Below are positions 865 through 62,707 of a stretch of DNA of 64,000 nt, one piece after another. Within the stretch, counting starts at the first letter, position 1. Every line of letters starts with the position of its first letter. Origin of the DNA: an uncultured Lachnospiraceae bacterium (GTDB taxonomy: Bacteria; Bacillota; Clostridia; Lachnospirales; Lachnospiraceae); NCBI GenBank assembly GCA_947650005.1, contig CANSTU010000003.1, positions 27,049 through 91,048 of the forward strand, in the 5' to 3' direction. The notes under the pieces were generated by a model. The model made no database searches and was not told the origin of the DNA. It saw only the letters and a program-made list of their open reading frames with translations. The position numbers and the translations under genes are program-made.

Positions 865-2508
865 TCAGTCATAAAGTGCATCCGCATCATAATGATAAGT
901 ATAATCCCCGGGAAGCACCCAGTTGTCGTTCTTCGGACTGATTCCCTCGATCACCTCTGTCCTATATGCGAAATAACTGTTACCGAATACGATAGGCCTC
1001 ACCACATCCGCATCGTTTACCATATCCAACAGTTTCATGGTATCCTCCGCATCGCCTGTCTTCACCGTCTCCGCCAGCAGCGTCTGGAATTCCTCGTTCT
1101 TCCAAAAGGTGCGCAGTGATTTATTTTCGTTCAACTGGTTATTAAAGAAGAATAGAACCGTTCCCACACAGGCATATCCTGAAATCAACATATCACAGGC
1201 CGCAGGATCTGTGATCAGCGTATTATAGGTTGCCGCATCATACACCAGGATTTCCAGATTGATTCCCAGCTGTAGCACCGATGCCTGGATAACCTCGGCG
1301 GAGGGCTGCGTATTGGCATCACACATGATGGTCAGATCCAGTCCGCCGTCCGGATAACCCGCCGCTACCATATATTCTTTTGCCTTTTCCATATCATAGC
1401 TGTACTTCAACGTACCGGCCTGATATTGGGGCGTATTCGGCGTAGCGATACAGTCCGCAGGGGAATACAGATTTTTATGTACCGCTGCTGCAATACCCGC
1501 GCTGTCCACCGCACAGGATATGGCATGGCGCAGGTTTTCGTTATCCATAACCGACTCTCCGGAACAGTTATAATAAATGGTCTGCGTATTGTTGCCGGGA
1601 TACTGATAGACTTCGATGCCATCCTTTCCCTGCAAATATTCCACATCAATTGAGGGCGTATAAGTAAGCATATCTATGCCGCCCGTCTCGAGCTCAATTG
1701 TCCTCTGCGCCTCTTCCGTAATCACTCTATATACGATCTTATCCACATTCTGCTTCTGCGTTTCCGTCTGATCCGTGTTCCAATAGTCTTCAAACTTTTC
1801 TAGAACCCATTCATAACCGGGCGTATAATCAGTCATTTTATAGGGGCCGCTTCCGATCGCAAGATTCACCATCTCGTCTTTGCAGTCATTGAATGATTTT
1901 TCGGATACAATGGAAATCCGCGTCATATCGTTGTAGAAAAAAGTGTCCTCTGCTTTTGTAGCCAGAACCAGGTTCAGATCATCCACCACATGGGATTTTT
2001 CAAAATCCACATTGGATGCATGGCGTCCGTATTCCGCGGATTCGGATGCCTTCTGAAAGCTGAACAGCACGTCGCTCGCAACGATTTTGTTTCCGTCATG
2101 GGTCATGATTCCGTCATGCAGTTTAAGGTTCAGCGTCGTCCCATCCTCCCATTCATAGCTTTCCACCAGGAGCGGAACCACCTCACCGGAAGCATTATAC
2201 TCAAAAAGTGTCTCATAGAAATTCAGACGGATCGACATAAACGGATCCTGGTTCGATCCCCACGGGTTAAAGGTACCGGAATCCTGATGAACCTGTACAT
2301 AAACGGTGGATCCGTCCCGGGCCTCGCTTTTCTCCGGCGCTTCAGATTCCGTCTGTTCCGCCGCATTCGTAGCTTCCTGCACCGTTCCTATATCCGATCC
2401 TGTATTACCCCCCCCCTGTGTTTCCCTGCCTCCACAGCCTGACAACAGGCTAATTCCCATAGCTACCGCCAAGGTAAGGGCTAATTTCTTTCTCCATTCC
2501 TTCTTCAT
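865..2508 (-). CDS. ABC transporter substrate-binding lipoprotein, family 5 (peptide/nickel type)
   Basis: This 547-aa lipoprotein carries a signal peptide ending in the lipobox LLSGC, so Cys25 should be lipidated. A Gly/Ser/Glu-rich linker and a SBP_bac_5 (PF00496) fold follow, with recognisable segments such as FNPWGSNQDPFMSIRLNFYE and AIGSGPYKM. It captures peptides or similar solutes outside the cell for the permease and ATPase genes just upstream. The linker contains a run of nine G on the coding strand (plus positions 2408-2416), here in frame. The start has a GGGGAG Shine-Dalgarno directly behind a GCCTGC/GCAGGC hairpin. The ligand cannot be read from sequence; opines, glutathione or nickel-chelates are alternatives. 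Confidence 0.9.
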   Translation of the reverse strand: MKKEWRKKLALTLAVAMGISLLSGCGGRETQGGGNTGSDIGTVQEATNAAEQTESEAPEKSEARDGSTVYVQVHQDSGTFNPWGSNQDPFMSIRLNFYETLFEYNASGEVVPLLVESYEWEDGTTLNLKLHDGIMTHDGNKIVASDVLFSFQKASESAEYGRHASNVDFEKSHVVDDLNLVLATKAEDTFFYNDMTRISIVSEKSFNDCKDEMVNLAIGSGPYKMTDYTPGYEWVLEKFEDYWNTDQTETQKQNVDKIVYRVITEEAQRTIELETGGIDMLTYTPSIDVEYLQGKDGIEVYQYPGNNTQTIYYNCSGESVMDNENLRHAISCAVDSAGIAAAVHKNLYSPADCIATPNTPQYQAGTLKYSYDMEKAKEYMVAAGYPDGGLDLTIMCDANTQPSAEVIQASVLQLGINLEILVYDAATYNTLITDPAACDMLISGYACVGTVLFFFNNQLNENKSLRTFWKNEEFQTLLAETVKTGDAEDTMKLLDMVNDADVVRPIVFGNSYFAYRTEVIEGISPKNDNWVLPGDYTYHYDADALYD

Positions 2509-26627: not shown

Positions 26628-28676
26628 TCAAGCGATCTGATAAATTCTTACGCCGTATTTCTCCACCGCTACGTTTCCGTTTTCCTCTTCCTGGGTCAAA
26701 AGGTTGCGCACAGCGGCCTTCAGTTCTATCTCCACTTCCTTGTCCGCATAGTTGAGCACGAATAGGTATCTATGGCTACCCTTTGCGCGCACGGCGATTT
26801 CGCAGCAGGCAGGCAGTTTCACTACATCTCGGTAGGGTTCTGCCATGCCCAGCTTACGCAGGAAGGTTTCCGCCGTATCCATGGCGAAGGCTCCTCCGAA
26901 GTAATAAACCTCTCCGGCGCCGAACTGGTTGCGGATCAGGGCGGGTTCTCCCGCATAGTCGCCTCCGGTATAGGAAGCCAGCACTTCGGCGCTGCCCGCT
27001 GCCGCCGCCAGGATATCGTTAAAAATGGCGGCCTCCACCTGTTCTCCATCCCAGTCCGCACAGATTTTTCCTTCATCCGGCGCTACAAAGGTGTATTCTG
27101 GAATATCCGTCCCGGCCAGGCTGGAGGCCAGACCAGGCAGGCGGTCCATCACACATCTGCCGTTTCTGTCCTTGTATCCCGCGCGGCAGCCCAGAACCAG
27201 TTTTCCTCCAGCGGCCACGTATTCTTCCAGCAGTCCAACTCGTTCCTGGGTTAAGATCACCGCATGGGGATAGAAGAGCACATCGTATTGTTTCAGTTCA
27301 TCCATATCCATGCCTTCACGAAGATATACGAAATCCAGCGGGGTATGGGTGAACTGGGCGGCTGCAAACAGGTTTTTCCGGCTTTCCTGGTCGATTCTTT
27401 GATGCCATGTATCCAGCTGTGCATCAAAGATGTTGTCATAATCCTCTATCAGGCCCACTTTGGCCTCGTACTTCGCGCCGGCTATTACCTGGATTTTAGA
27501 TAATTTCTCCGCGATGTCCCGTACTTCTTTGATCCTGCGATTTTCCCGGCTGGAATAGTCCAGGATACCATGCCAGTAAATTTCCGTGCCCACCGTGCAG
27601 GTCCTCCAGCGGAAATAGCTCACATAGTCCGCTCCATGGGCGATGCTCTGCATGGTCCATAAGGTCATCTGGCCCGGTCTGGGCGTGGGCGCCTCCATCC
27701 GGGTATTCCAACCGTTTGCTCCAGACTGCTGTTCCATGATGCCGAATACCGGGGAAATAGCCCGCACCTCCGCCAGATTCCGGCTCCACTTCCGGTCCTT
27801 GAGCGGATCTTTTTCGTCGTACGCATCCAGACAGTAGGCAAAGTTGGGATAGGAGTCGTAGGTCATGAAATCAAGGCTCTCTTCCCGCATCCTATGGTTG
27901 TCCAGATTGGAAAAAATTCCGTTGGTGGTGACAAAATCATCCTCTTTGATATATTTTCTGATAATGTCCGCCTGCATCTTGGCAAACCGGCAGGCGCTGT
28001 CAGAAATAAAACGGATATAATCCAATACCCTGTGGGGATTGGTGGAATTACTGATCGTCGTCCTGGGTACATATACCTCTCCCCAGGAAGTATAGGTCTG
28101 GTTCCAGAAGACCGTGCCCCAGGCTTCATTGAGTTTCTCAACGGTTCCGTACTTTACCTTGAGGAATTCCCTGAAAGCTACGGAATCGCTTTCAGAATAG
28201 AACTCCGAAACTTCGCAGTTTAACTCATTATCGATCTGCCAGCCTATGATGCTGGGGTGCGGCGCATAGTGGGAAGCAAATCTTTCCGTAATATTTGCTG
28301 CAAATCTCTGATATACCGGGGAATTATAATTGTAATGCCTTCTCGCCCCGTGGCGGAACAGCACGCCGTCCATGGTGCCGTTTAAGACCTCCGGATATTT
28401 ATCCGTAAGCCAAGCTGGCGGTGTAGCCGTAGGAGTGCAGAAGATTACCTTCATGTCCGTCTTAGCCACCTTTTCCAGGAAGGAGTCGAAGAATTCATAG
28501 GTATATTCCCCTTCCCTGGGCTCCACCTTGCTCCAGGCGAATTCCGCTATGCGGATCACCCGGATTCCAGCTTCCAGCATCCGTTCCAGATCTTCTTCCC
28601 ACAGGGAAGGATCCCAGTGTTCCGGATAGTAGCAAGTTCCCAGCATCATATCCTGACCGTTGATCATGTATCTCAT
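26628..28676 (-). CDS. Beta-galactosidase, glycoside hydrolase family 42
   Basis: This 682-aa cytoplasmic enzyme cleaves beta-galactosides. The GH42 opening LGTCYYPEHW is present. The acid/base Glu is in GWQIDNELNCE and the nucleophile Glu in FGIMEQQSGANGW. The trimerisation and C-terminal beta domains complete the family length. The start MRYMINGQDMM at 28676 has GGAGAG eight bases upstream. It follows the two permease genes by about 100 bp, which links the transporter to galactoside use. Confidence 0.93.
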   Translation of the reverse strand: MRYMINGQDMMLGTCYYPEHWDPSLWEEDLERMLEAGIRVIRIAEFAWSKVEPREGEYTYEFFDSFLEKVAKTDMKVIFCTPTATPPAWLTDKYPEVLNGTMDGVLFRHGARRHYNYNSPVYQRFAANITERFASHYAPHPSIIGWQIDNELNCEVSEFYSESDSVAFREFLKVKYGTVEKLNEAWGTVFWNQTYTSWGEVYVPRTTISNSTNPHRVLDYIRFISDSACRFAKMQADIIRKYIKEDDFVTTNGIFSNLDNHRMREESLDFMTYDSYPNFAYCLDAYDEKDPLKDRKWSRNLAEVRAISPVFGIMEQQSGANGWNTRMEAPTPRPGQMTLWTMQSIAHGADYVSYFRWRTCTVGTEIYWHGILDYSSRENRRIKEVRDIAEKLSKIQVIAGAKYEAKVGLIEDYDNIFDAQLDTWHQRIDQESRKNLFAAAQFTHTPLDFVYLREGMDMDELKQYDVLFYPHAVILTQERVGLLEEYVAAGGKLVLGCRAGYKDRNGRCVMDRLPGLASSLAGTDIPEYTFVAPDEGKICADWDGEQVEAAIFNDILAAAAGSAEVLASYTGGDYAGEPALIRNQFGAGEVYYFGGAFAMDTAETFLRKLGMAEPYRDVVKLPACCEIAVRAKGSHRYLFVLNYADKEVEIELKAAVRNLLTQEEENGNVAVEKYGVRIYQIA

Positions 28677-28779
28677 TATAACATCTCTCCATTTCTTACT
28701 TAATTTATTTCTCATACCCGAAGCGCAATGGCCCGCCTGAGCGCCGCAATAAGCCGGAAGATCAGCTGGCAGCGGCTTC

Positions 28780-29664
28780 TTATTCTTTGATGGCGCCTGC
28801 AGTCAGTCCTGACATAAAGAACTTGGACGCGCACAAGAAAGCTGCCAGTAACGGAAGCACCGCACAGGCGCTGGCCAGCATCAGGGCGCCATAATCCGTT
28901 CCCCTATCGCCCACCATCGTCCGCAGCATCAGGGGCAGGGTCTGATATTTTTCCTTTCTCAGGATCATCAGAGGCTGCATGAAGTCATTCCACACATTGA
29001 CAAACTGCATGATCCCCAGGGACGCATAAGCCGGCAGGAGCACAGGAGCGATTACGCGGAAGAAAATCGTCCACTCGCTGCATCCGTCGATACGAGCCGC
29101 CTCCATGAGAGAAACCGGCACATTGTTCTTACAATATTGACGCATCCAATAGATGCCAAAGGCATTGGCGCAATTGGGTATGATCAGCGCCTTGAAACTG
29201 TTGATCCAGCTGAATTTAGACATCATAATAAACCAGGGAATGATTCCCGCCGTGGCAGGGATCATCATGGTGGCCAGCAGGATCGCAAACATCTTGTTCT
29301 TTCCCGGGAAATCGTACACCGCAAAGGCATATCCTCCCATGGAGCAGAACAGCAGCACCAGGAACGTATAGGAACAGGTTATGATCAGGCTGTTCATGAA
29401 CGCCCTGGGGAAATTCACCGCCGCAATCATGTTTCCGAAATTCGTCACTAGGTTCGTTCCGAACCAAATCGCCGGAGGGAACGAATAGATTTCATTGGTC
29501 GGGCGGGTGGACATGACAAACATCATATAAAAGGGCGCCAGCATGATCAGCGCGATCGCCAGCAATATGACATACAGCGCAATCTTTTTTCCGGCCGGAT
29601 GCAGCTTGGCAATCACGATAAGTACGATCGCAACGGCGGCGATCAGCAAAAGCAGTGTTTTCAT
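28780..29664 (-). CDS. Carbohydrate ABC transporter permease (MalG/CUT1 type)
   Basis: This 294-aa inner-membrane permease has six to seven helices and the EAA loop EAARIDGCSEWTIFFRVIAP. It ends FFMSGLTAGAIKE, the standard CUT1 C-terminus. Its start overlaps the stop of the MalF-type gene (ATGA), implying coupled translation of the heterodimer. No ATPase gene is present here, so a shared MsmX-like ATPase elsewhere is expected. Confidence 0.93.
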   Translation of the reverse strand: MKTLLLLIAAVAIVLIVIAKLHPAGKKIALYVILLAIALIMLAPFYMMFVMSTRPTNEIYSFPPAIWFGTNLVTNFGNMIAAVNFPRAFMNSLIITCSYTFLVLLFCSMGGYAFAVYDFPGKNKMFAILLATMMIPATAGIIPWFIMMSKFSWINSFKALIIPNCANAFGIYWMRQYCKNNVPVSLMEAARIDGCSEWTIFFRVIAPVLLPAYASLGIMQFVNVWNDFMQPLMILRKEKYQTLPLMLRTMVGDRGTDYGALMLASACAVLPLLAAFLCASKFFMSGLTAGAIKE

Positions 29665-30629
29665 GATTTTTTCCTCCTTCCGGCCTTCTTCCCATCCCTT
29701 TCCGCACTTACCGTATTCACGAAAACGGAAATGCAGACGATCATAATGGTGATCACATAAGCGCAGGCAGATGCATAGCCATAGGCCGTTCCGCCCTGAG
29801 GCGCCTTGTTGAGCAGGTACATCATCAGCGTCAGCCCGCCGTTATTCACACCGCCCGTCCAGCTGGAGTTGGTCAGAATGAACGGCTCCGTGAACAGGTT
29901 AAACATTCCGATGGTGGACTGTACCAGCGTGAATACGATGATGGGCGTCAGCAGGGGAATTACGATCTTGAACATGATCTTTGTGTTGGTGGCGCCGTCA
30001 ATCCGGGCCGCCTCATAGATATCGTTGCTGATTCCCTGCATACCCGCCAGATAGATTACCATATTCCAGCCAACCCATTTCCAAGCGAACATGACGATGA
30101 CCGCCACCTTGATCAGGCTGCCGTCCCCGCCCAGCCAGTTGATGGGCTCCTCCCCGAAGAAGCTGAGGAAATAGTTGATCGTGCCGTAATTATAACCAAA
30201 CAGACTCTGAAAAATGATCGAGATCGCCACAGAACTCGTCACCATGGGCATAAAGTAAATGGTCTTGAAAATATTTTCTCCCTTCACCAGCTTTGAATTG
30301 AGGATATAAGCCAGCGCAAGCCCGCCCAGAAGGATTGGGATATGGGCAATGATGCCGATGACTACCGTGTTTTTCAAAGCCTTCCAGAACAGTACATCAC
30401 TCAGCAAATTTACATAGTTTTCTAAACCCAGAAAATGCATTTCGGAGATCCCATCCCACCGGAAGAAACTGATGAACAGCCCAGCAGCAATTGGAAACAG
30501 TCCAAAAATTGCAAACAAGATATAGAAGGGCGCAATGTAGGCATATGCCACTCTGTTCTTTTTCAGCGTTTCCATAAACCCCTTCTTTTTTACCGCAACG
30601 GCCGCATTTTGTATTTTATCCAACCTCAT
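29661..30629 (-). CDS. Carbohydrate ABC transporter permease (MalF/CUT1 type)
   Basis: This 322-aa partner permease has six main helices (AYAYIAPFYILFAIFGLFPI onwards) and the EAA loop EAARIDGATNTKIMFKIVIP. The ATG at 30629 has GGGAGG close upstream; the track start is 12 codons too early. It lies about 120 bp after the binding-protein gene, with a strong hairpin between, as is common where the binding protein is made in excess. Confidence 0.92.
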   Translation of the reverse strand: MRLDKIQNAAVAVKKKGFMETLKKNRVAYAYIAPFYILFAIFGLFPIAAGLFISFFRWDGISEMHFLGLENYVNLLSDVLFWKALKNTVVIGIIAHIPILLGGLALAYILNSKLVKGENIFKTIYFMPMVTSSVAISIIFQSLFGYNYGTINYFLSFFGEEPINWLGGDGSLIKVAVIVMFAWKWVGWNMVIYLAGMQGISNDIYEAARIDGATNTKIMFKIVIPLLTPIIVFTLVQSTIGMFNLFTEPFILTNSSWTGGVNNGGLTLMMYLLNKAPQGGTAYGYASACAYVITIMIVCISVFVNTVSAERDGKKAGRRKKS

Positions 30630-30670
30630 ACCTCCCATCCCAGCAGCAAGCGTCGGATTCCACATATAAA

Positions 30671-30746: not shown

Positions 30747-32190
30747 TTATTCCTGCCATACGCCGGCATCCTTCAATGCCTGGATCTGCTGCTGCTTCAC
30801 TTCCGCCGTCGCCGCTTCGATATCGGAAATGAGCAGAGAACGGATCCCTTCTGCGTCAAGGCCTTGCTGCAGGCCGGAGTTCACTGAGCTGTAGATGCAG
30901 CCCTCTGCAGTGGTATCCATCATGGTGGTAACAACCGGCTTGATGTCCGCCGCAATGTCAGCGGCCAGGGATTTGGGTGTAGGGGTCTGGTTGCCAAAGT
31001 AAGCATCGGGCGCTTCATAGATGGAAGCGTCTTCCCATGCAGGTTTATAAGCGGGATAATAGTCCACTGCTTCAAACATGGCATTCTGCCCTTCCACGGT
31101 CGCCAGCATATAGGTCACAAATGCCCAAGCTGCTTCCTTATTCTCACTGCTTTCCGGAATAACCAGGAAAGAACCGCCCCAATTGGAGCTTGCAATGTTG
31201 CCGTAGAGTTTAGCCGCACCCCAATGGCCTGATCCTTCCGGATCAATATCCTTCTTCAGGAAACCACCGAACCAGGAACCCGTCGCCACGGATGCGCAGG
31301 AACCGTCCGCATAGGCCGCATAGGCCTCCGTGGACCACATATCCACGTTCATATCCCAGCCGTTCTCACGCATTTTGATCACCGCATTCAGACAGTCCAG
31401 ATCGCCGTCCCGTTCCACCTGAAGCTCCAGGTTTTCGTTGTAATAGTCCCTGTTACAGAACATCAGGAAGTACAGGTAAGAGGCATCCGGAAGAAGCCAT
31501 CTTTGCCCCGGAACGTAAACCTTTTCCGCCGCTTCCAACACGCCGTCCCAGGTACTCATCATTTCGGCCACCTCAGTAGGGTCAGTTGGCAGACCGCATT
31601 CTTCAAATACATCCGTGCGGTAGAAATACTGGGCCGGGCCGATATCCCAGGGAAGAGCCACCAGCCTCTCTCCGTCTGAAGAGATCGCCTGATTCCATTT
31701 AAACTCCACAAAATCATCCTTGATGCTGTCAGCGCCCAGGCTCCTTAAGTCTGCCAGGGCCTTAGAATCCCTATACTGTGCGATGTATGCGCCCTCCACC
31801 ATGGCTACGTCAAAGTCACCACTGCCCGCTGCAAGGGAGGTCTGCAGGGCCTGATGATGCGCCGTGGTATCTGTAAACTGCAATTCCACCTCTATGTTGG
31901 GGTATTTTTCCTGAAATCCTGGAAGCGCCGCCTCAAAAGCATCGTCGCCTGAAGGCCAGCCGCCCACCACGATGGATCCGGAAATGGAAGAATCCCCTGC
32001 GGAAGCATCCACTGCTGCATCCCCTCCGGAATTGTCGGAAGAGGCATCTTCGTCGTTTACCTCAATACCCCCCCCCGGATGAATTTGACGCGCTCTGGGA
32101 ACCGGAATTCCCGCAGCCAGCCAGCAGGGAAGCCCCCATGGTCAAGGTAAGGGACAGGGCCAGCAGTTTTTTCACATGTTCACTTCTCAT
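30747..32190 (-). CDS. Sugar-binding lipoprotein (SBP family 1), frame broken at a 9-G tract
   Basis: The true start is the ATG at 32190 (MRSEHVKKLLALSLTLTMGA), giving a signal peptide and lipobox LLAGC. After SASNSSGGG the frame meets nine G on the coding strand (plus 32068-32076) and stops at once. With eight G it would continue IEVNDEDASSDNSGGDAAVD directly into the track ORF and give a normal protein of about 480 aa. The mature part (SIVVGGWPSGDDAFEAALPG, NWGGSFLVIPESSENKEAAW) is a CUT1-type solute-binding protein. Length polymorphism of the tract or a sequencing error would both explain the break. AGGAG precedes the start behind a hairpin-SD module. Confidence 0.85.
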
Positions 32191-32297: not shown

Positions 32298-33383
32298 TTA
32301 GAATCTTTTTATATTTCGCACACTATCCGCCTCGATCAGCCGAAAGCCTGCGTGATTCACATATCTGAATTTCTTTCCCTCTATGATATCGAGGAGCACC
32401 TCCGCGCATTTCGCCCCTTGGATGCGCGGAAATACAGAAACCGTGCTCAGAAGAGGGGTCACATACTTACGCGTATCGATTCCGTCAATTCCCATCACCG
32501 ATATGTCTTCCGGAACTTTCATGCCCATTTCCTGGAATCCGCGAATTAAACCCAACGCAAAATCGTCGTTGAATCCCAGGATTGCCGTGGCATCCATTCC
32601 TCGCTCCCTCCACAGATGAGCGGCAAGTACGCCTTTTCCGAAGAAATCCTCGGAAACAGTCACCCATTCTTCCGCCACCTCTTCTCTAAAATTCTTCATC
32701 CGTTCATCGCATTTCAGCCTGGGATCCCGCCGGGTCACCGCGATGTAATAATCCTCCGTGTTCTTCATCCCCCGATCCTTCATCCAGGCATTCCAAGCGA
32801 TTCCTCTTGCCTGCCCGTCCTGAAGAGTATACGGCATTCCGACTGCTATCCTGCGATGTCCTAGTTTCCATAGATACTCCAGAGCGGTTTCCGCCACCTT
32901 GAACATGTCCACGTCCACCACCGGAAGGGGATGGCTGGTATGTAAGTTGTCGCTGTAGGAGGCACTTACCACCGGAAGATGGTAATTCTTTCCATAATTT
33001 TCCAAGTAGAAACGCGCTACGCTCTGATCCTGCATGATGATTCCGTCCACCAGGGTACTCTTGATCTCTTCAAAGGCGATCTGTCCGTTGAACAGAACCA
33101 TATATCCCCTATCCACCGCCACATCCAGCATTCCCTTATACAATTGGATATTGAACGCGTTATCTACATTCTTACAATAGAACAGAATTTGTCGTGTCCT
33201 TTTTTTCTGAAGGGATATGGCCACGGGATTGGGTGCATAATTCAATTCGTCGGCAATTTTCAGTATCTTTTCCTTCTTTTCCCGGGCCACATACCCGCTG
33301 TTGTTAAGCGCCCTGGAAACTACAGAAACAGACGTCCCTGCCTTTTGAGCAATATCTTGTCTGGTAGCCAGCTTTTTCTCCAT
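32298..33383 (-). CDS. LacI family transcriptional regulator
   Basis: This 361-aa repressor has an N-terminal helix-turn-helix (ATRQDIAQKAGTSVSVVSRA, hinge NPVAISLQKK) and a periplasmic-binding-like sensor domain. It is the first gene of the galactoside-type locus, read in the same direction as the transporter, and probably represses it until the sugar is bound. The ATG at 33383 is the natural start of the HTH domain; only a weak AGGG lies upstream. The gap to fba (33384-33707) contains A+T-rich promoter-like sequence and a terminator. Confidence 0.9.
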   Translation of the reverse strand: MEKKLATRQDIAQKAGTSVSVVSRALNNSGYVAREKKEKILKIADELNYAPNPVAISLQKKRTRQILFYCKNVDNAFNIQLYKGMLDVAVDRGYMVLFNGQIAFEEIKSTLVDGIIMQDQSVARFYLENYGKNYHLPVVSASYSDNLHTSHPLPVVDVDMFKVAETALEYLWKLGHRRIAVGMPYTLQDGQARGIAWNAWMKDRGMKNTEDYYIAVTRRDPRLKCDERMKNFREEVAEEWVTVSEDFFGKGVLAAHLWRERGMDATAILGFNDDFALGLIRGFQEMGMKVPEDISVMGIDGIDTRKYVTPLLSTVSVFPRIQGAKCAEVLLDIIEGKKFRYVNHAGFRLIEADSVRNIKRF

Positions 33384-33644
33384 ACGCTCTGCCCTTTTGC
33401 ACAAATTGCATAATTACAGTTCTATTTATAGGAAAGATTCTGTCCGGCTTTTTGTTTTTATGGTTTAATCATAGTCAATTTAGATGTGATCTGCAATATC
33501 AATATTTGTGGTCGCACGTCCACATGGCAAACTGCACATAACCATAATCGGACAGGGTGAAGCCTTCCTTCCTGCGTAATCGGCTGGAGAAGAGTTCCCC
33601 TCTGCCCGCCGCGTGGGGTAACTTCATCCGTGCCCCCTGCGTAT

Positions 33645-61768: not shown

Positions 61769-62707
61769 ATGACGGACCGAGAACTGCTTTATGTAAAGAC
61801 GGTCATGGAAGAGCACAGCCTAAATAAGGCCTCTCAAAAACTGTTCATTTCTCAACCGGCCCTTTCCCAGGCAATTCAGCGTATTGAAGTGACCATTGGA
61901 ACCCCTTTGTTTTATAGGACGCCCACGGGCCTAATTCCGACCGAAGCCGGGAAAAAATACTATCAGATGGCCCAAGAAATCCTTCGTTCTTACCGTTGCT
62001 TTATCCATGAACTGACTACCCCCCCCCACCAGGATGAGGGAGCTTTTCTGTTCGCAACGACCACCTCTCTAGCCGCATCCATTTTTTATTCCCTCTATCC
62101 TTCTTTCCTGAACAGCTATCCTGGTATTAAGGCCACCATCCACGAAGGGCCCCATTACCAAATGCTCGATATCCTCCGAGAGGGATACGTCAATATGGTC
62201 ATCCTATATTCCAGCGTTGCTTCACGCCTTGCGGAATTCCAATATCATCTCCTTGTAAAGGATTCCATCATTGTGGTGGCCAACCCTGAAATGCTCTCTT
62301 TTCACAGCGCCCACCACGCGCCCGGCTATCGATATCCTGTCATCGATCCGATGGAATTGTCTGAACATCCCTATATTAAAAATTCCAGCATAAATCCAAC
62401 GGCAGAATTTATCGACTCGGCCCTTTCCCAAAATGGCCTTAACCTGGAAGACAACATCTATCTGCAAATCGGACGTACCTGTACCGTTGTCCAGCTGGCT
62501 TCTGCCACTGTTGGCTTCGGATTCAGCCCTTCCCTGCAGATCAGCAGCCAGGTGCCAGAAAAATGCAAGTTTATGCTCCCTCACGGTTTCTTTCCGCCCT
62601 ACAATTTGTATGCGCTGCTTCCTGCCGGCAATACGTGGAACGCTTCGGAGCGCATATTCATAGACTACGTCAGGGAATCCCTGAAGGATTCCGTACTATT
62701 TGGATAG
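61769..62707 (+). CDS. LysR family transcriptional regulator
   Basis: This 312-aa regulator has an N-terminal HTH (LLYVKTVMEEHSLNKASQKL, SQPALSQAIQRIEVTIGTPL) and an effector-binding domain of CbbR/CysB-like fold. GGAGG lies eight bases upstream. A run of nine C (62019-62027) sits in frame in the linker between the two domains. The large palindrome upstream is a candidate binding site. Targets could be its own gene or the divergent two-component operon. Confidence 0.92.
   Translation: MTDRELLYVKTVMEEHSLNKASQKLFISQPALSQAIQRIEVTIGTPLFYRTPTGLIPTEAGKKYYQMAQEILRSYRCFIHELTTPPHQDEGAFLFATTTSLAASIFYSLYPSFLNSYPGIKATIHEGPHYQMLDILREGYVNMVILYSSVASRLAEFQYHLLVKDSIIVVANPEMLSFHSAHHAPGYRYPVIDPMELSEHPYIKNSSINPTAEFIDSALSQNGLNLEDNIYLQIGRTCTVVQLASATVGFGFSPSLQISSQVPEKCKFMLPHGFFPPYNLYALLPAGNTWNASERIFIDYVRESLKDSVLFG

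Follow-up and report, generated by a model that had tools for sequence, protein, structure and literature searches.

A frame-breaking nine-G tract in a sugar-binding lipoprotein gene of a Lachnospiraceae bacterium: a probable slipped-strand phase-variation site among many G-tracts of the genome

Contingency loci that switch by slippage are known mostly from mucosal pathogens. The poly-G tracts of Campylobacter jejuni are usually about 9–10 bases long, and homopolymer tracts in Neisseria promoters act by a spacer mechanism of phase variation. In a gut commensal, phase variation by G-tract slippage has been described for the pili of Bifidobacterium breve UCC2003 (PMC9187656). The locus reported here resembles that system in several respects: an intragenic G-tract (10–12 bases in B. 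breve) in a gut commensal, a surface structure as the affected product, ON/OFF switching by replication slippage, predicted for the present locus, and polarity on downstream genes, which was proposed for B. breve as it is here. The wider set of tracts in the same genome also recalls the C. jejuni poly-G contingency loci, with several phase-variable surface-glycan genes per genome (PMC8437040, PMC13317227), and the Neisseria phasome, in which coding and promoter-spacer homopolymer tracts occur within one genome (PMC5084427, PMC5953494).

We analyzed a 64-kb stretch of DNA (hereafter the window) from an uncultured Lachnospiraceae bacterium, whose genome has 51% GC and is assembled in 138 contigs. 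The original prediction held that the signal peptide and lipobox of a sugar-binding lipoprotein lie in one frame and the mature protein in another, with a run of nine G at the join, where eight would keep the frame. Translation confirmed the two frames, with the SBP_bac_1 match in the next frame, and the frame arithmetic was correct: the nine-base run at 32068-32076 does break the frame. The features of the locus, in the direction of transcription, are as follows.

32298-33404, minus strand: LacI-type regulator; the binding-protein gene lies downstream of it.
32062-32190, minus strand: frame of the signal peptide and lipobox, 42 aa and then TGA (ATG at 32190, TGA at 32062-32064).
32113-32115, minus strand: Cys codon of the lipobox LLAGC.
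32068-32076, minus strand: the tract itself, C9 when read on the plus strand and G9 in the coding sense, with TATTGA on its 3' side; the frame breaks here, at a putative slippage site.
30747-32061, minus strand: sugar-binding protein (SBP_bac_1 / SBP_bac_8) in its mature-protein frame, which stays open between the tract and the stop codon and has no further lesion.
32010-32027, minus strand: possible internal restart, with GGAGGGG at 32027 and GTG at 32012.
29661-30665, minus strand: ABC sugar permease 1 (BPD_transp_1), codirectional.
28780-29664, minus strand: ABC sugar permease 2 (BPD_transp_1).
26628-28715, minus strand: GH42 beta-galactosidase.

Read on the minus strand from the ATG at 32190, the first frame gives MRSEHVKKLLALSLTLTMGASLLAGC-GNSGSQSASNSSGGGY and then TGA, so that the order along the gene is lipoprotein signal peptide, LLAGC, Ser/Gly linker, G-tract, a single Tyr codon and the stop. 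The mature frame (GGGIEVNDEDASSDN...) is the neighboring one and runs uninterrupted down to 30747. It is the single open frame after the tract, at least 421 aa long, and its binding domain is a full-length SBP_bac_1 (E=8e-28; 98.7 bits vs. a curated cut-off of 26) for which the closest solved structures are sugar-binding proteins. The domain, the LLAGC lipobox and two downstream permeases together identify a sugar-binding lipoprotein, with lipobox and domain in different frames as assembled. The break sits exactly at the G9 and the halves on either side are intact; beyond this single frameshift, no disabling change of the kind that marks a decaying pseudogene was found in the binding protein. 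Because the G9 is placed between the lipobox and the binding domain, a change of one unit alters the frame, and the tract is a slippable site.

The binding-protein gene heads an operon that continues with the ABC permease, the second permease and the GH42 gene, and no lesions were found in the permeases, GH42 or the regulator. With a LacI-type regulator upstream, and two permeases of sugar type and the GH42 beta-galactosidase downstream, the focal gene is predicted to supply a galactoside-type importer with its binding component.

The G9 lies in the Gly/Ser linker that joins the lipobox to the substrate-binding domain, and the assembled length would correspond to the OFF state: with a stop at the second codon past the tract, the anchored binding protein would not be made. 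Gain or loss of G bases during replication could bring a minority of cells back into frame, and such switching would presumably be reversible. In the OFF state the downstream permeases and GH42 may lose expression through polarity, and the internal GGAGGGG...GTG (32027/32012) could restart translation to give a signal-less protein.

Searches recovered 26 close orthologues at 66–74% identity, mostly from clostridial MAGs and Lachnospiraceae isolates. Most of the 25 for which upstream DNA was read continue in frame from the signal peptide, and near the junction the G-runs of these 25 never exceed five bases. The focal tract is lineage-specific, as these orthologues lack a comparable one. Nor is it a conserved switch, because a search of 12 further genomes from this genus gave no match to the gene itself at E<=1e-60 and the tract is missing in orthologues from other genera. 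Support for phase variation comes mainly from the genome-wide pattern of tracts rather than from a length change at the focal tract.

Within the window, matches to G8 or longer are not above the expectation from a dinucleotide shuffle (6 vs. 9.6), so the presence of the focal tract alone proves nothing. What departs from chance is the distribution of run lengths, in the window and genome-wide, together with the 3' flank. The window holds 57, 10, 2, 0, and 3 G/C runs of length 5, 6, 7, 8, and 9, respectively, and its A/T runs reach a maximum length of 7. Across the 3.59 Mb genome, exact G-run lengths are distributed as 40 G7, 14 G8, 23 G9, 6 G10, and 1 G12. The 23 G9 runs compare with about 5 expected from geometric decay (G7 to G8; P about 3e-9), and A/T run lengths decay smoothly, without a bump. 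Long G-tracts are over-represented relative to the genome's own run-length decay. The spectrum omits a G23 at the end of contig C17 (L015), treated as an artefact; it is probably a product of two-color sequencing.

Two further G9 tracts lie in the window.

2408-2416, minus strand: second G9 (L004), in frame, with TAA on its 3' side; it lies in the linker behind the lipobox of an SBP_bac_5 lipoprotein of peptide type.
62019-62027, minus strand: third G9, followed by TAG, antisense in an open, intact LysR-like gene (about 61769-62707, plus strand), in frame.

In solute-binding lipoproteins, tracts located in the linker or signal peptide occur in both frame states. They are out of frame in the focal gene (L005) and L007, and in frame in L004, L014, L095, and L117 (a G8). 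In sister genomes, L163 is out of frame and L155, L189, L190, and L203 are in frame; L095/L189, L117/L190, and L155/L203 form pairs of in-frame tracts. In L151, a lipoprotein that belongs to no known family, the tract is also out of frame. Among surface-polysaccharide-type genes, a methyltransferase (L104), a DUF6020 gene (L091) and a GT4 gene (L089) are interrupted by the tract, a GT2 gene (L108) probably so, and in a WcbI-type gene (L098) the tract is in frame. Tracts are also found in some AraC-type regulator genes and near the start of membrane genes (L103 and L011, frame state unclassified). Tract-bearing genes (binding proteins, glycosyltransferases, WcbI-type, flagellin) are largely surface-exposed or environment-facing. 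The ON/OFF status of individual tracts was assigned by inspection. A mechanical spanning/shifted-frame score for G7, G8, and G9 tracts was dropped as too noisy to classify them, since open frames on the antisense strand and gene overlaps can look like frameshifts.

Not all tracts are in coding sequence. Seven of 91 lie inside a near-consensus promoter (at least 10 of 12 matches) whose 15–18 nt spacer holds the tract; in a flank-swap control the mean was 1.3, and none of 400 swaps reached 7. Tracts in promoters and upstream regions include the following.

L012 (1501-1509): C9 in a perfect TTGACA-16-TATAAT, before a DUF2961 gene.
L093: TTGACA-17-TATGGT, before a binding protein.
L092/L184: promoter tract before an ABC ATPase.
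L158 and L160: promoter tracts before permeases.
L174: TTGAAA-15-TATAAT, before a lipoprotein-type gene.
L002 (1501-1510): G10, 105 bases upstream of a flagellin gene.

A change of length would shift the reading frame in coding tracts, and in promoter tracts it would alter the -35/-10 spacing. Phase-variable motility is possible for the G10 upstream of flagellin. As a whole, the contingency tracts are predicted to act on solute-binding lipoproteins, surface-polysaccharide genes and flagellin, presumably to some selective benefit. We also observed an intergenic G8/G9 tract (L116, L120, L148, and L204) with a TATAAT-like box nearby and flanks conserved in four species.

The sequence that follows the tracts is a further common feature. 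The next base is T after 25 of 30 runs of at least nine G vs. 3 of 40 G7 runs (Fisher P=5e-11), and the flank after the longer runs is mostly TAA or TAT. Counted over 299 family genomes, GGGGGGGGGTAW has 270 occurrences and its mirror image 38, after exclusion of one outlier of low completeness. (This outlier, G157, is 68% complete and, with 36 G9TAW and 27 mirror matches, stands far above the other genomes, an oddity of low complexity or of assembly.) In a Bacillota-wide sample from which the present genome was removed, the same pattern occurs 120 times vs. 61 for the mirror; the bias toward a TA(A/T) flank is about 7 to 1 in the family, and for other Bacillota it is about 2 to 1. The flank is common to tracts in Gly-rich linkers, internal coding sequence, promoters and antisense to promoters. 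Reading it as no more than a -10 box does not explain every case, since TA follows the run in coding and antisense-promoter contexts too, and reading it as just GGT-AAT in linkers was rejected on the same grounds. We consider it doubtful that a lineage-specific process makes or maintains G-tracts before TAW, as a dedicated hypermutation context beyond ordinary polymerase slippage. In practice, the flank offers a simple signature for spotting such loci in metagenome reads.

Comparison between species reveals differences in tract length. In three sets of orthologous tracts the flanks are conserved and the lengths are a single G apart: L087 (G10) vs. L185 (G11), L094 (G10) vs. L186 (G9), and L116 and L120 (G8) vs. 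L148 and L204 (G9). Tract length is equal across two species for L092/L184, L088/L188, and L095/L189. Two other cases were not counted as slippage: L117/L190 (G8/G9), where the base preceding the run differs, and L007 vs. L208, where the linker is not cleanly alignable.

Taken together, we think it probable that the focal G9 is a slipped-strand phase-variation site, one of about 25–30 G9-10 contingency tracts in the genome. Phase variation of the exported binding protein, as originally predicted, is the best reading of the G9-10 excess, the common 3' flank and the promoter-spacer positions. It is also backed by the solute-binding lipoproteins found in and out of frame, and by the one-base differences between orthologues in sister species.

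An error of assembly or sequencing, with the true tract in frame and the gene constitutively intact, is unlikely. Homopolymers are classic error sites, the remainder of the gene is intact, and the 138-contig assembly has one contig ending in an artefactual-looking G23. However, the same tract positions, with conserved flanks, recur in independently assembled relatives, which makes sequencing error improbable as a general cause, and error would not account for A/T runs without a bump, for tracts in promoter spacers or for the common 3' flank. Moreover, if a tract really does vary, phase variation would hold even where its consensus length had been called wrongly.

Slightly less likely again is a fixed pseudogene, in which a one-time frameshift has hit a gene that is being lost from the species. 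The gene is accessory, being missing at the above threshold from the 12 congeneric genomes, and could be decaying; yet the binding protein, permeases, GH42 and regulator have no other lesion, and the break falls at a type of tract that recurs in many genes of the genome, in both frame states.

Long homopolymers can make RNA polymerase slip. The usual motif for such slippage is a run of A or T (PMC3711429). Programmed slippage at the G9, transcriptional or ribosomal, could let a genome with an unchanging tract produce a share of full-length protein. This is very improbable here, as it leaves both the promoter-spacer tracts and the one-base orthologue differences unexplained.

If slipped-strand phase variation does operate at these tracts, commensals of this kind would diversify antigenicity and diet use within one clone, and consensus genomes would routinely mis-annotate the affected genes as frameshifted pseudogenes. 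A full-text literature search, with most subscription papers outside its scope, returned no description of such loci in Lachnospiraceae or Clostridia. The kind of system is already known; a large tract set in a clostridial family appears to be newly described, in that we did not find it in the literature searched. Compared to the Neisseria phasome, the gene set and lineage are different, and the promoter tracts here are predicted only. In B. breve, a member of the Actinobacteria, two pilus clusters are involved, in contrast to dozens of tracts here, mainly in transport lipoproteins, polysaccharide genes and promoter spacers, with switching predicted from sequence. Unlike the C. jejuni loci, the tracts reported here belong to a clostridial genome of 51% GC, are prominent in the linkers of solute-binding lipoproteins, and consist of a G-run followed by TA(A/T).
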